A stretch of DNA of 39,291 nucleotides. It comes from a virus. The notes below the pieces were generated by a model that ran no database searches, was not told where the DNA came from, and was given only the letters and a program-made list of their open reading frames with translations. The stretch covers positions 1 to 39,291 of IMG/VR virus record IMGVR_UViG_3300031999_000087; one strand, given 5' to 3'. A program made the position numbers and the translations under genes. This document shows positions 13,368 to 37,780 of the stretch, in pieces (the first letter of the stretch is position 1; each line of letters begins with the position of its first letter).

Positions 13368-14102
13368 TCAATTACCGTAGTAGGTTCCGTCCGGGACGTT
13401 GGCCATGCTTATTAGCAAGCGGCCCTGCCCACCAGATAGATTAATTACTGGGGCACCTTGGTTCTGAGCCTTCTCAGAACCAAGGAGGTAGTTGAACTCT
13501 TCCTGCAGGATCGTGGTATCAAAGCCTTTCTGACTCCACATCTTGACCTTTAGGCCGGCGATCATAACCCGGCGGTCGTATAGCGGCTTATCAGTGGCGC
13601 GGATTATCCTGTCTTGGTAGTTTGGATTTTGTGGGTCTGGGCTAGTGCCGTCGATCACCCAGTTCTTACTGATGTAGTACATGGCAAACTCTTGCCCAGC
13701 GCCGGGCACTGGGTAGACCGTGTACTTGTTGTGGAGGATTCGGTACTGAAAGTATACCCCGACCGCCACAATGCCGAATTTATTCCAGGCCCACACCTGC
13801 GGGCTGACCGGCCCCTGCATTGGGCGGCGCATCGAGGTGTTCCACTCAGTTTGATTTACCTGACGGCCAAAGTCGGCCGGCATTGGAAACTCGTCCTGGG
13901 TGCCGTCCGCGATGAAGCCCATCTGCTTTTCTAGGAACTGCCAGTCCTGCACACGATTTAGCTCGTCACCAAGCGCATTGAGCAGTCCCAGCATTTGATA
14001 GCCGCTAGCGTCGCCAGCGGCAGAACTTAAAGATACCGGCGGCAGGCCCAACTCTTGGGCAGCCGCATTGATGATTTCATCTGCTGTCCCAAGAGTAGAC
14101 AT
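13368..14102 (-). CDS. Head-to-tail adaptor protein
   Basis: A 244-residue protein starting MSTLGTADEIINAAAQELGL, the helical opening seen in podovirus adaptor proteins comparable to P22 gp4 or T7 gp11. The middle contains WQFLEKQ and FPMPADFGRQVNQTEWN, also typical. It should sit between the portal and the gp10-like hub. A possible terminator lies just upstream, so it may be on a separately tuned stretch of the late transcript. Confidence 0.75.
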   Translation of the reverse strand: MSTLGTADEIINAAAQELGLPPVSLSSAAGDASGYQMLGLLNALGDELNRVQDWQFLEKQMGFIADGTQDEFPMPADFGRQVNQTEWNTSMRRPMQGPVSPQVWAWNKFGIVAVGVYFQYRILHNKYTVYPVPGAGQEFAMYYISKNWVIDGTSPDPQNPNYQDRIIRATDKPLYDRRVMIAGLKVKMWSQKGFDTTILQEEFNYLLGSEKAQNQGAPVINLSGGQGRLLISMANVPDGTYYGN

Positions 14103-29802: not shown

Positions 29803-29838
29803 AGCGGAGTACCTTATTAGCTGGCGGGCGGTGTTGCC

Positions 29839-29880
29839 TGCCAGTGCCCCCATTATAAGGGTACGGGGGCACTGGCACAA
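29839..29880 (-). promoter_or_regulatory. Promoter inside a 13-bp inverted repeat (minus-strand operon)
   Basis: On the minus strand TTGTGC (29880-29875), a 17-base spacer and a perfect TATAAT (29857-29852). TGCCAGTGCCCCC (29839-29851) and its exact complement (29865-29877) flank the -10 box with a 13-base centre. The palindrome covers the core promoter, as expected of an operator. TGTTGCCTGCCAGTGCCCC is repeated at 29968-29986 before the plus-strand operon. Confidence 0.75.
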
Positions 29881-29967: not shown

Positions 29968-30000
29968 GTTGTTGCCTGCCAGTGCCCCTTAGGGCATAGT
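29968..30000 (+). promoter_or_regulatory. Probable promoter of the plus-strand replication operon
   Basis: TTGCCT (29972-29977), a 17-base spacer and CATAGT (29995-30000). The -35 lies in a 19-bp sequence identical to part of the divergent promoter's operator. The 250-bp divergent gap holds no gene. Confidence 0.5.
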
Positions 30001-32230: not shown

Positions 32231-32410
32231 ATGGAACTTCGCAGCTACCTTTGCGAAGTGTGCGGGCTGCGCCGCGTCAAAGGGCGCAGCCACTCTAAAT
32301 GCAGCAAACTCTTGCAGGAACGTTATGATAACGCTAGACTTCGAGACGGAAGCAATTCAGGACTTCGCCCCACTACTGCCGAAGCCAGTGGGGTGCTCCC
32401 TAAAGTTTGA
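32231..32410 (+). CDS. Small zinc-finger protein overlapping the polymerase gene
   Basis: A 59-codon frame starting MELRSYLCEVCGLRRVKGRS followed by HSKCSKLLQERY, so Cys-x2-Cys and His-x2-Cys, a compact zinc finger. The last 86 bases overlap the start of the polymerase gene in another frame. AAGGT precedes the ATG. Similar tiny fingers (ending SHxKCS) precede polymerase genes in other phages. Possibly binds DNA or modulates the polymerase. Confidence 0.65.
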   Translation: MELRSYLCEVCGLRRVKGRSHSKCSKLLQERYDNARLRDGSNSGLRPTTAEASGVLPKV

Positions 32411-34064
32411 CGACGGCCCCAGCCGATACTGGTCTTGGGGTCACCCAACTGAAAACAACTGCACTATGGAGGAATTCGGTGTTGTACTTAAAGAAATCTG
32501 GGACCAGCCCATCCTTACCCAGAACGGCTGTACCTTCGACATACCCATCGCTGAGCATTGGTTTTCCTTGCCGCGACGTGACCCGCTGCTCACCCACGAC
32601 ACGTTGTTCGCCTCGTATTTGCTCAACCCTCACGCACGGAGTCTCAGCCTTAAGGACTTAGCTCAAGATTGGCTTGGGATGCCACCTGACGCACAGGCGG
32701 CGCTAAATGACTGGATTATGGCCAATACTCCGTGCAGCTCCCGCAAAAAGTGCGGCGCTTACATTAGCCTAGCCCCCGGCAATTTAGCAGGGCGCTACGC
32801 GGAAGCTGACACGGACATGACTAAGGCGCTGTGGGACTACGTTAGCGCCAAAGTTCTGCCAGATATGCAGGAACCCTACGACCGCGAGCGGCGGCTGGCC
32901 CCAATCTTGGCTGATCTACAGAATCAGGGGGTGCCTGTTGATATGCCCCGGTTGGAGGCAGACACCGTTGCTGCTACGCACAGGCTGCACGAACTAGACG
33001 CTACCATCCGGACTCGGCTAAACACTCCAGACCTGTGCCTAGATAAAGATGCGGCCTTGGTCGTAGCGCTAAAGGCTCAGGGCTTCGACAACTTCCTGAC
33101 CACCCCCACCGGCAAGGTGTCGGCAGCCAAGGATAGTTTGGACTCGGCACTGGCTAGTGACCCCGAGTTGCGGGGGCTGTTAAAGCAGCGTGCGACCTAC
33201 GCAACACTTACCTCAACATTCATGGGGCCGTGGCTGGAAGCAGCCCGAGCCAATGGGGGGCGCATACATGCGAGTTATAATCAAGTGCGAAACCCAGATG
33301 GGTACGGGACCCGAACTGGCAGACTTTCTAGCAGCCGCCCAAACTTTCAAAACGTCCCTGGAAACCTTGGGCCTGACTACCCTCTCATGCGAAGTTATCT
33401 CCTACCAGAACATGACCACGTTTGGGTTTGTGGGGACTTTAGCAACCAAGAGCCTCGCATCACAGCCCACTTCGAAGATGGACGACTCTGTGCCGAGTAC
33501 GCAACCAACCCAACACTAGATCCCTACCTGTTCGTAGCCGAGCTTTGCGGCATTACTCGCAAACAGGCCAAGGTCGTGCTACTGGGCATCATCTACGCGA
33601 TGGGCCAAGCTACTATGGCCGAGGGCATGGGGGGCGGCACTACGAGCGAAGAGGCTGGGCGGCTGCGCAACATTATCCGGGCCACGCTGCCGGACGTTAC
33701 GCAACTGGACAGCGACTGCAAGCGCCGGTTCAGCTTGGGCCTGCCCATCCGCACGCTAGGGGGCCGCCTGTACTACTGCGAGCCTGCCAGCAACGGGCGT
33801 CGTTGGGAGTATAAGGCGCTTAACACTCTTATTCAGGGCAGCGCCGCTGACCAAACCAAGGAGGCATTGATCTATGTACAGAGTGGACTTCGAGACGGAG
33901 AACGGATATTGGGTACGGTACATGACGAGATATCCATATCTTGTACGGCTGACCGTGTGGACGCTATACAAGCTCTGCTCCAGCGAGCAGCCAATGCGCT
34001 ACCGTGCGACGTGCCGATGCTGATGGACATACACCCGGGGGCCACATGGGCAGAGGCAAAGTAA
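32325..34064 (+). CDS. Family A DNA polymerase with 3'-5' exonuclease
   Basis: A 579-residue replicative polymerase. The proofreading domain has Exo I LDFETEA (Asp5, Glu7), Exo II QNGCTFDIP and Exo III YAEADTDM. The polymerase domain has motif A GDFSNQEPR (Asp371), motif B RKQAKVVLLGIIYAMG (Arg412-Lys416) and motif C VHDEI (His533-Asp534). The residue equivalent to E. coli Phe762 is Leu420, a substitution that slows synthesis but raises accuracy. No 5' nuclease domain is present. It must copy a template that may carry modified thymine. Confidence 0.95.
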   Translation: MITLDFETEAIQDFAPLLPKPVGCSLKFDDGPSRYWSWGHPTENNCTMEEFGVVLKEIWDQPILTQNGCTFDIPIAEHWFSLPRRDPLLTHDTLFASYLLNPHARSLSLKDLAQDWLGMPPDAQAALNDWIMANTPCSSRKKCGAYISLAPGNLAGRYAEADTDMTKALWDYVSAKVLPDMQEPYDRERRLAPILADLQNQGVPVDMPRLEADTVAATHRLHELDATIRTRLNTPDLCLDKDAALVVALKAQGFDNFLTTPTGKVSAAKDSLDSALASDPELRGLLKQRATYATLTSTFMGPWLEAARANGGRIHASYNQVRNPDGYGTRTGRLSSSRPNFQNVPGNLGPDYPLMRSYLLPEHDHVWVCGDFSNQEPRITAHFEDGRLCAEYATNPTLDPYLFVAELCGITRKQAKVVLLGIIYAMGQATMAEGMGGGTTSEEAGRLRNIIRATLPDVTQLDSDCKRRFSLGLPIRTLGGRLYYCEPASNGRRWEYKALNTLIQGSAADQTKEALIYVQSGLRDGERILGTVHDEISISCTADRVDAIQALLQRAANALPCDVPMLMDIHPGATWAEAK

Positions 34065-34195: not shown

Positions 34196-34835
34196 CAAGG
34201 CGATAAGCTACTCAGGCCTAAGCCTGTACCGCAAGTGTCCACAGGCGTGGAAGCACGCCTACATTGACGGTAATCGCTCAGAACCCGGCGCGGCGGCCAA
34301 GCGCGGCACCCGCCTGCACCAGCAGTTGGAGGACTACTTCAACGGCAAGGCATATCCGGAAAAGAGCGCCGTGCTGGCCCCTTGGAAGACGTTCATGTAC
34401 GACCTAGCCGCCAAGCGCCCAATCGCCGAGCAGAAGCTGGCCGTAGACGCTAGCTGGCAGCCGGTGGGGTTTGACGATGAGAATGCCCACGTTAGGGGTG
34501 CGGTGGACTTAACGTACAAGGACGGCCCCCTTGTCGTGCTGGACTGGAAAAGTGGGCGCATCTATCCCGAGCACAAGGGGCAGGCCGATATCTACGCCTG
34601 TATGTCTATGGACGGGGGGCCAGTATCTGTCGGTATGGTGTATCTGGACTTGCCCCTACACACCCAGATGTGGGACTATACCGCAGGCAACGTGGAAGAC
34701 CTAAAGGGCGCGCTCGACCAAGAGATTGACGTGCTGCGCTTAGACGAGGAGTACATCGCTACTCCTTCCGACAACGCTTGTTACTGGTGTCCACTGTCGT
34801 GGCGCAAGGGGGGAGAATGCACTAAAGCACCGTAG
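34188..34835 (+). CDS. Cas4/RecB-like PD-(D/E)XK nuclease with Fe-S cysteines
   Basis: A 215-residue nuclease. The catalytic residues appear in order: His44 (GTRLHQQ), Asp107 (VRGAVDLTY), Asp119-x-Lys121 (VLDWKSG) and the QxxxY motif Gln132-Tyr136. Cys17 (YRKCPQAW) with Cys198, Cys201 and Cys211 at the C-terminus matches the four-cysteine iron-sulphur layout of Cas4 and AddB nucleases. The ATG at 34188 follows GGGAAG; an upstream start at 34146 adds unrelated residues. Likely trims DNA ends in recombination or replication. Confidence 0.88.
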   Translation: MYNKAISYSGLSLYRKCPQAWKHAYIDGNRSEPGAAAKRGTRLHQQLEDYFNGKAYPEKSAVLAPWKTFMYDLAAKRPIAEQKLAVDASWQPVGFDDENAHVRGAVDLTYKDGPLVVLDWKSGRIYPEHKGQADIYACMSMDGGPVSVGMVYLDLPLHTQMWDYTAGNVEDLKGALDQEIDVLRLDEEYIATPSDNACYWCPLSWRKGGECTKAP

Positions 34836-35069
34836 ACCTAACGACTGGTAGGCGATACCTACCCCGATAAGCCTTGCGGAAGACTGTATCGGAGAGCATC
34901 TACTAGCTGGGCGCTCTCCGATGCAGCAATCCGTTGCATCAGCCACCGAATTAGACACTTGGGGGCGTAGCTCTGAGAGGGGCATCGGCTTGGCCTGCTG
35001 ACATGAGTCACCCGCCAAGCGCCGGAAGCGTAACCGGCACTAATCGTAGGGTATAGAGGCTAGGTTGAA
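34836..35069 (+). ncRNA. Gene-free structured stretch, candidate non-coding RNA or leader
   Basis: All plus-strand frames are broken by stops, in an operon where other genes touch or overlap. Stems: 34847-34863 (GGTAGG/CCTACC); 34864-34892 (CCGATA/TATCGG enclosing a second stem with a GCGG loop); 34888-34922 (ATCGGAGAGC/GCTCTCCGAT, 10 bp); 34920-34940 (GATGCA/TGCATC); 34988-35020 (GCTTGGC/GCCAAGC); 35021-35038 (GCCGG/CCGGC). The second and third stems share bases and cannot form together. No known RNA family recognised. Confidence 0.55.
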
Positions 35070-35444
35070 ATGATAAGACTTCGTGAAGCAATGACCCACG
35101 GCCGACTACAGGGTGAGGATCGGCCTATGCCGTACCGCCCATCTGTAATAGTTGACCACCAGAGGACATATGAGGACAACAACACCCTAGACAGATGCAC
35201 TGGCTATCGTATGGACGTCAGGGTAGCGTTGAAGTTCTGGGCAAATCAAGCTCAATTCTCAGACGCCTACAAGAACGCCGAAAAGCAGGTGCTGCACTTC
35301 ATCTATGGTGATGTAATAGTGACTATTGGTGAGGTTCACAGTATGCTGTACGCTGGTGACTTAGACGCCGCCCACAAACGACTCGCTAAGTTAGAGCAAG
35401 AACTACTGGAGCCAAGCAATGCTAGAAAAGAACATAGAGGCTGA
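35070..35444 (+). CDS. Hypothetical protein (124 aa)
   Basis: A 124-residue protein. After a basic start (MIRLREAMTHGRLQGEDRP) comes an alpha/beta domain with YRMDVRVALKFWANQAQFSD and a C-terminal helical pair (AGDLDAAHKRLAKLEQELLE). It lies directly after the structured stretch and overlaps the VRR-NUC gene by 26 bases. An internal start MPYRPSVIVDH is possible. Function unknown. Confidence 0.6.
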   Translation: MIRLREAMTHGRLQGEDRPMPYRPSVIVDHQRTYEDNNTLDRCTGYRMDVRVALKFWANQAQFSDAYKNAEKQVLHFIYGDVIVTIGEVHSMLYAGDLDAAHKRLAKLEQELLEPSNARKEHRG

Positions 35445-35769
35445 GGTTGGTCGGCAGGTAAAAGAGTGGTCGCGCGACATCAAGCTAGAACTGCACTATC
35501 TGAAGCTTACCATCGTAGCGGGTAGGGGCTGGCCCGACCGCCTTATACTCTGCCCCAATCGTGGGGCACTGTTCATTGAGTTTAAGCGGCCCGGCGAGCA
35601 GCCCCGCAAGCTGCAACTCCACATCCACGCGATACTTCGCAAACTAGGGTTCGAGGTTCAGATTCATGACGACGTCAATATCGCAGTGGCAGCTATCAAG
35701 ACCTACGTGGACGCCACGGCCAGAGCAGGTGCGGGGCATGAAGCTGATTCTGGGGGGCAGGGGGGCTAG
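35419..35769 (+). CDS. VRR-NUC endonuclease
   Basis: A 116-residue stand-alone VRR-NUC domain (PD-(D/E)XK fold). The catalytic set is Asp40 in RGWPDRLIL, Glu54-x-Lys56 in LFIEFKRPG and Gln66 in KLQLHIHAI; the helix ILRKLGFEV completes the fold. Such small VRR-NUC enzymes resemble Holliday-junction resolvases and are often encoded next to an SNF2-type helicase, as here. The last 104 bases overlap the helicase gene, and the C-terminal tail (ARAGAGHEADSGG) is probably unstructured. Confidence 0.92.
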   Translation: MLEKNIEAEVGRQVKEWSRDIKLELHYLKLTIVAGRGWPDRLILCPNRGALFIEFKRPGEQPRKLQLHIHAILRKLGFEVQIHDDVNIAVAAIKTYVDATARAGAGHEADSGGQGG

Positions 35770-37196: not shown

Positions 37197-37736
37197 ATGC
37201 ACGACAACACTGCTGAAAACATCGAAGAAGCCGTAGAAGCTCCTACCAAGCGCGTCCGTAAGCCTAAGCTCGATGCTGAAGGTCAGCCGATCGTAAAGGC
37301 GGTTAAAGAGTCTAAGCTGTGGCCCCAGTATGCTGAAGACGGCAGCCCCCTGCTTGACGAAGCCGGCGAGCCAGTGCTCGGCACTGCCCGCATGGCCAAG
37401 CCGAAAGTAGCCAAGCTGTACCCGCAGTATGCCGAAGACGGCAGCCCCCTGCTGGATGAAGCTGGCGAGCCAGTGCTGGGCACGACCCGCATGGCCAAGC
37501 CGAAAGTGCAGCGCTTGGACGAAGACGGCAACCCGATTGCCCGTGCTCGCGTAGTGCCTTCCGACGTAGAAGCTGTGCTGGTGGTCAACGCCGCTAAGAT
37601 CGCCGGCTACAAGGGTGCTCGCGCCGACAACGCCAAAATGCTCGAAGACGGCATGACGTTGGGTGCGTTCCTGGAGGCCGGTGGCGACAAGGGCTTCCTG
37701 CGCTTCTACATGCGTGACGGCGCTGTAAGCATCTAA
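37197..37736 (+). CDS. Basic protein with two 33-residue repeats
   Basis: A 179-residue protein. The N-terminal 40 residues are charged (EEAVEAPTKRVRKPKLDAEG); then two near-identical 33-residue repeats (PQYAEDGSPLLDEAGEPVLG followed by MAKPKV), and a C-terminal folded part (KIAGYKGARADNAKMLEDGM, then RFYMRDGAVSI). The repeat resembles the DEDGNPI-type linkers of DNA-compacting proteins, so nucleoid or DNA binding is possible. It leads the modification cluster behind its own promoter and ends at a strong hairpin. AGAGGT precedes the ATG. Confidence 0.7.
   Translation: MHDNTAENIEEAVEAPTKRVRKPKLDAEGQPIVKAVKESKLWPQYAEDGSPLLDEAGEPVLGTARMAKPKVAKLYPQYAEDGSPLLDEAGEPVLGTTRMAKPKVQRLDEDGNPIARARVVPSDVEAVLVVNAAKIAGYKGARADNAKMLEDGMTLGAFLEAGGDKGFLRFYMRDGAVSI
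37317..37514 (+). repeat. 99-bp coding tandem repeat, two copies
   Basis: Units 37317-37415 and 37416-37514 encode 33-residue repeats that differ at few residues, while many DNA differences are synonymous. This points to an old duplication held by selection on the protein. Confidence 0.9.
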
Positions 37737-37751: not shown

Positions 37752-37780
37752 CAGAAGGCCAACCTAGTGTTGGCCTTCTG
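37752..37780 (+). terminator. Perfect 12-bp hairpin after the repeat protein gene
   Basis: CAGAAGGCCAAC (37752-37763), loop CTAGT, GTTGGCCTTCTG (37769-37780). There is no T tract, so it may be a partial terminator or an mRNA end-protecting or processing site between the repeat protein gene and the glycosyltransferase gene. Confidence 0.6.

Follow-up and report, generated by a model that had tools for sequence, protein, structure and literature searches.

A structured noncoding stretch beside an orphan gene at a variable junction of a phage replication module

Our analysis showed that a 234-nt stretch in the replication module of a phage is noncoding, structured and inserted at a site that varies between related phages. 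The window, by which we mean the whole DNA analysed, is a 39,291-base linear virus record whose terminase has 43% identity to those of Methylophilales phage Venkman and several Pelagibacter phages. Its right part is a plus-strand replication module (Table 1), which also includes a putative A-family polymerase-like gene at 32325-34064 (+). The stretch follows a PD-(D/E)XK exonuclease gene, whose start was set by comparison with the nearest relative (locus L044). It had originally been predicted to precede the gene at 35070 and then a VRR-NUC/helicase pair; this gene order was confirmed, and the gene at 35070, hereafter g124, proved to be an orphan. The VRR-NUC-like gene matches Pfam PF08774 only below threshold (E 0.04).

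Table 1. Coordinates of the genes, hairpins, alternative stems and repeats at the exonuclease/VRR-NUC junction of the window.
Feature	Start	End	Strand	Basis
PD-(D/E)XK exonuclease gene; left insertion border	34188	34835	+	Pfam PF12705 E 2e-17; PHROG exonuclease
Noncoding structured stretch	34836	35069	+	ORFs, codon usage, shuffles, stem counts
Hairpin GGTAGG/CCTACC, 6 bp	34847	34863	+	Pair probability ~0.95
Alternative stem CCGATA/TATCGG, competes with long hairpin	34864	34892	+	Exact stem; forced fold -89.8 kcal/mol
Long hairpin, resembles RNase III substrate	34876	34934	+	MFE structure
Alternative stem GATGCA/TGCATC, competes with long hairpin	34920	34940	+	Exact stem, fold comparison
Hairpin GCTTGGC/GCCAAGC, inner TGAC/GTCA	34988	35020	+	Pair probabilities 0.95-0.99
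Hairpin GCCGG/CCGGC	35021	35038	+	Pair probability 1.0
Direct repeat copy 1, ATAGAGGCT-AGGTTG	35053	35067	+	Shuffle test
g124, orphan ORF, 124 aa	35070	35444	+	Coding by codon usage
VRR-NUC-like nuclease gene; right insertion border	35419	35769	+	phrog_93 endonuclease E 4e-15
Direct repeat copy 2, ATAGAGGCTGAGGTTG, across g124 end inside VRR-NUC start	35434	35449	+	Shuffle test
Helicase gene, SNF2/DEAD type	35666	37078	+	Annotation of phage relatives (DNA helicase)

The exonuclease gene closes with its stop codon at 34835, and 35070 is the first base of the ORF that follows. The interval contains no plus-strand ORF of at least 40 aa, and even when ORFs of at least 30 aa are counted 233 nt, essentially the entire stretch, stay uncovered. 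All six frames have negative codon-usage log-odds (-0.025 to -0.20), those of 25 window genes ranging from +0.12 to +0.36, and when the stretch was cut into 78-nt pieces the best of the six frames never exceeded the 6th percentile of true coding tiles. The prediction of a gene-free stretch is thus confirmed by the lack of ORFs and by negative codon statistics in every frame. The five longer stop-to-stop frames gave no PHROG match and a single sub-threshold Pfam match (E 0.24), and tblastx of the stretch against 159 loci returned nothing better than E 0.15. A recently degraded gene is disfavoured by the codon statistics and by the lack of an accepted family for the open frames; an old one is a possible source of the stretch. 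The idea that the stretch is a partial duplicate of g124, with which it shares a 13/17-nt repeat, was ruled out by alignment against shuffles.

The stretch is structured beyond chance. Its minimum free energy (MFE) is -96.3 kcal/mol, with z-scores of -3.13 on the plus and -3.14 on the minus strand, and on each strand one of 200 shuffles was equally stable. A further 1000 shuffles of the plus strand gave a z-score of -3.2, with two equally stable; a value of -5.3 from a 30-shuffle run was discarded as noise. Because both strands fold about equally well, these energies do not single out the RNA strand. The fold is unusual within the window but not unique, since a GC-corrected energy as low or lower was found in 4 of 334 overlapping tiles, and a z-score of -3.2 or less in 4 of 167 tiles (30 shuffles each). 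Most of the signal comes from the sub-region 34877-34933 (z -6.2, none of 300 shuffles as stable), with a contribution from 34986-35040 (z -3.3); the z-score is -2.0 for 34836-34875, and the 3' half as a whole (34941-35069) is not significant (z -1.4). Six strong stems had been noticed originally; by our count there are seven exact Watson-Crick stems of at least 6 bp with loops of up to 60 nt, compared with a mean of 2.3 in 300 shuffles, a number reached in a fraction of 0.0033 of the shuffles and in 2.4% of 167 window tiles. With G-U pairs allowed, chance alone would give about one 14-bp stem per window (0.98 in shuffles; two were observed), although a 10-bp exact stem inside a given 234 nt is rare (0.7% of 300 shuffles).

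The long hairpin is made of 5 bp, a 3x3 internal loop, 14 bp (34884-34897/34913-34926), a 1x1 loop and 4 bp. It thus has about 23 bp with small internal loops, corresponding to about two helical turns, and lies between two cistrons; the predicted probabilities of its 14 inner pairs are 0.88-1.0. We rejected it as an intrinsic terminator, because its tail lacks a T-run, and no plus-strand terminator was detected in 34600-35500, an interval in which no sigma-70-like promoter was found either.

Other parts of the window have comparable elements. Perfect hairpins of at least 12 bp without T-runs occur at 1963-1994, 13456-13485, 29839-29877 and 37752-37780, whereas 0.175 are expected from 40 shuffles. 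They are not intrinsic terminators, and they suggest that the phage carries long hairpins more generally, only some of them between genes by rough gene calls. The third one, with 13 bp, overlaps the first copy of an identical 19-nt direct repeat, TGTTGCCTGCCAGTGCCCC, found at 29832-29850 and 29970-29988; this repeat is possibly part of an operator or promoter region, because it sits where minus-strand genes yield to plus-strand genes. Two other genes deserve mention. The gene at 37800-38549 matches the PHROG beta-glucosyl-HMC-alpha-glucosyltransferase (E 6e-25; Pfam TAGT sub-threshold), and by this match the phage may have glycosylated modified DNA. The gene at 37197-37736 encodes a 179-aa protein with a tandem internal repeat of about 30 residues (YPQYAEDGSPLLDEAGEPVLGT...) and no PHROG match.

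How variable is the site of the stretch? We took related loci from IMG/VR via the window proteins and alignments, and counted the 47 that matched both the exonuclease and the VRR-NUC protein and had distinct exonuclease ends, leaving out the window itself (L043) and loci with identical exonuclease ends, which were treated as copies. Gene order (polymerase, PD-(D/E)XK exonuclease, VRR-NUC, helicase) is conserved among relatives. The exonuclease and VRR-NUC genes adjoin or overlap in 28 of the 47 loci (approximate gap of -51 to 53 nt), and the other 19 carry inserts of 162-1244 nt that are mostly covered by ORFs. From this frequency of inserts we conclude that the stretch is part of a variable site for accessory genes. 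The addition at the junction of the window amounts to about 583 nt and comprises the structured stretch and g124. The nearest relative, L044 (75% identity in the helicase, 58% in the exonuclease and 57% in the VRR-NUC protein), has no insert, and neither does L046 (58% identity in the polymerase), as read directly from both sequences; the stretch is therefore not needed at the junction. Among the nine loci with helicase identity of at least 50%, the two genes abut in six and are separated by inserts in three (L058, L059 and L060).

The inserts of the relatives differ from that of the window in their coding content. Long open frames are present in those of L058, L059, L060, L002, L050 and L051. 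When all plus-strand ORFs of at least 30 aa are counted, spurious ones included, no other gap has more than 122 nt left uncovered, the value for the window being 233 nt. By eye, the insert of L050 (5760-6895) has an ORF of HNH/NUMOD4 type and, after it, one resembling a 3'-5' exonuclease, a possible homing-type insertion. In the insert of L058 (4353-4757), two small open frames are separated by a 16/17-nt copy of the 3' end of the exonuclease gene, possibly a case of modular gene capture by junction duplication. One proposal made for the stretch was that it is a remnant of a mobile element. Its absence, and that of the gene at 35070, from the same junction in relatives fits this proposal, but mobility and remnant nature were only partly borne out.

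The second component of the insertion, g124, has a codon-usage score (0.137) inside the range of the other genes of the window. PHROGs, PADLOC and NCBIfam gave no match to it, and Pfam gave only a sub-threshold one. Searches of phages, plasmids, viral contigs, genome contigs and 37 virus records revealed no homologue, and its structure predicted from the single sequence (pLDDT 48) is too poor for use. The G+C content is 49% in g124, 57% in the stretch and 56% in the window, and given this difference the stretch and g124 may have separate origins. The sequence would fit a single insertion of about 583 nt that brought in both the stretch and g124, or two insertions in succession.

A 15/16-nt direct repeat of the form ATAGAGGCT(G)AGGTTG flanks g124, and its first copy contains the likely Shine-Dalgarno sequence of this gene (AGAGG, 35055-35059). 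Such a repeat arose by chance in 1 of 2000 shuffles of a 39-nt segment and in 4 of 2000 shuffles of the whole 234 nt; of 2966 control segments, the only one scoring as high or higher, at 34776, overlaps the query itself. A target-site duplication of the exonuclease end found no support in the window (261 of 2000 shuffles; p 0.615). When we searched for junction copies in 19 inserts (the window and 18 loci, with L071 omitted because it nearly duplicates L070), the only two to stand out were those of the window (p 0.005) and L058 (0 of 200 shuffles). The signal was weak in L101 (p 0.025) and in L059 and L060 (p 0.06), and unconvincing in the other tested inserts, which argues against junction-copy scars as a general rule. 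For the window and L058, the repeats suggest an insertion with duplication of junction sequence.

Searches for relatives of the stretch gave little. The original statement that no phage RNA family matches it agrees with a search of the window against Rfam, which yielded no match at gathering scores, including to riboswitches, ribozymes, group I/II introns, HEARO and tmRNA; with E up to 10, the interval 34600-35300 had one meaningless match of 9.2 bits (gathering 80). A resemblance to a P7-like segment of group I introns was discarded for want of Rfam support, and a dedicated search found neither tRNA nor tmRNA. Nothing convincing was obtained with blastn against phages and plasmids, with blastn and nhmmer against 135 loci other than the window's own, or, beyond the window, with a covariance model (R1, for which the single sequence was entered twice) on 88 sources and 33 virus records. 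A DNA pattern for the apical hairpin matched no viral contig. It had 24 matches in genome contigs, which we take as chance because they come from unrelated organisms and the R1 match covers only the hairpin part. Divergent homologues could be missed, since protein- and DNA-pattern scans reach only close relatives, and the lack of relatives is no evidence for a new functional class. In the literature searched, including PMC4858673 and PMC2864571, we found no description of the exonuclease/VRR-NUC junction or of this RNA.

What could such a stretch do? Our preferred explanation, the likeliest of those considered but held tentatively and at somewhat less than even odds, is that it is an intercistronic processing or insulating RNA element and a leader of g124, carried along with this accessory gene. 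On this view, the replication operon has gained an accessory piece of about 583 nt between its exonuclease and VRR-NUC genes, composed of the structured noncoding segment (34836 to about 35052) and of g124 framed by the short direct repeat. The noncoding segment would act in cis in the polycistronic mRNA. Its long hairpin would be an RNase III-type site for processing or stabilisation, setting the exonuclease message apart from that of g124, VRR-NUC and helicase, and the remainder would form the g124 leader. We infer transcription through the stretch, cleavage and any effect on expression. We favour such an element because the long hairpin lies between cistrons and lacks a T-run, and because the window has long hairpins elsewhere. 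Against it speak the absence of the stretch from the closest relatives, the chance expectation for 14-bp stems with G-U pairs, the similar folding of both strands and the failure to find a sigma-70-like promoter in 34600-35500.

Several known systems offer parallels. RNase III processing hairpins have about two helical turns and are found in intercistronic regions. Like those of T7-type phages, the candidate hairpin of the window is long, irregular, placed between cistrons of an operon and devoid of a terminator T-run; unlike them, it is a putative site within a multi-hairpin stretch and has no counterpart at this junction in relatives. Accessory-gene insertions in phage genomes are termed 'moron'-like. 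They share with our case an extra small gene of lower G+C content between conserved genes and absent from relatives, but here the insert also has a structured noncoding segment, and neither an own promoter nor a plus-strand terminator was found. HEARO and OMEGA elements are small inserted units in which a structured RNA immediately precedes an ORF. The arrangement here is alike, but the stretch has no Rfam match and the ORF, of 124 aa, matches no nuclease family. Finally, PMC2864571 presents the manA and wcaG motifs as candidate structured phage RNAs identified by comparison of many homologues; these are also structured noncoding regions upstream of a phage gene, whereas for our stretch we found no homologue or Rfam match.

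The main rival, possible although on balance unlikely, is that the stretch is what is left of a mobile piece or accessory gene that formerly occupied the variable site and decayed there, in which case its structure would be functionless. This would fit the presence of small genes at the site in several relatives, the lack of conservation anywhere we searched, the likeness of the direct repeat before g124 to an insertion scar, and the insignificant folding of 34941-35069 as a whole. Yet the coding signal is absent in every frame and piece, the five longer open frames and the tblastx comparison gave no acceptable relative, and the long hairpin and the number of stems exceed chance expectation.

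The stretch might instead be a cis-regulatory leader or switch, in which an exchange of pairings sets the translation of g124 and, through it, of VRR-NUC. The TATCGG/ATCGGAGAGC segment can pair upstream (34864-34869/34887-34892) or downstream (34888-34897/34913-34922). The mutually exclusive stems of the original prediction thus exist on paper, and a competing pair of at least 6 plus at least 10 bp was seen in none of 300 shuffles and in 2.4% of 167 window tiles; pairs of 6+6 bp are commoner (10% of shuffles, 16% of tiles). But the downstream pairing dominates, and the upstream CCGATA/TATCGG stem has a predicted probability of about zero. Forcing it costs 6.5 kcal/mol (-89.8 vs -96.3), and replacing the outer part of the long hairpin by GATGCA/TGCATC costs 2 kcal/mol (-94.3 vs -96.3). 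In the upstream-forced fold, eight hairpins that almost adjoin one another form a ring, which is shut where the bases immediately following the exonuclease stop pair with those around 35045-35052. In the isolated stretch, this fold frees the AGAGG ribosome site of g124 (unpaired 0.79-0.95 vs 0.25-0.58). With 40 nt of downstream sequence, AGAGG is equally paired in both folds, and once about 50 nt of flanking sequence are present at either end, the difference in access is weak and partial. As the effect on the Shine-Dalgarno sequence is lost or only partial once flanks are included, we claim no switch, for which there is also no ligand-binding Rfam family; we regard this explanation as improbable.

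We give similarly little credence to a trans-acting small RNA, alone or in an RNA-plus-protein cassette with g124, for example of the kind of type III toxin-antitoxin systems, where tandem RNA repeats precede a ToxN-type protein. A compact multi-hairpin RNA beside an orphan gene, both absent together from relatives, would be consistent with it. However, the stretch has no tandem repeats, g124 matches no family, PADLOC included, the G+C contents of 57% and 49% make a shared origin of RNA and gene doubtful, and neither promoter nor plus-strand terminator was seen. Slightly less probable still is its boldest form, in which a previously undescribed phage RNA of about 217 nt, folded into as many as eight hairpins with hardly a gap between them, and the orphan protein would make up a cassette that enters a recurrent insertion site between replication genes and acts in trans, either on the host or on rival phages.

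Should the stretch be no more than a scar or a processing hairpin, it would belong to the ordinary anatomy of phage genomes. If it is a functional RNA, structured RNA, and not genes alone, can enter phage replication operons in small accessory insertions, and the exonuclease/VRR-NUC junction, with its recurrent inserts, would be a place to seek unknown phage cargo.
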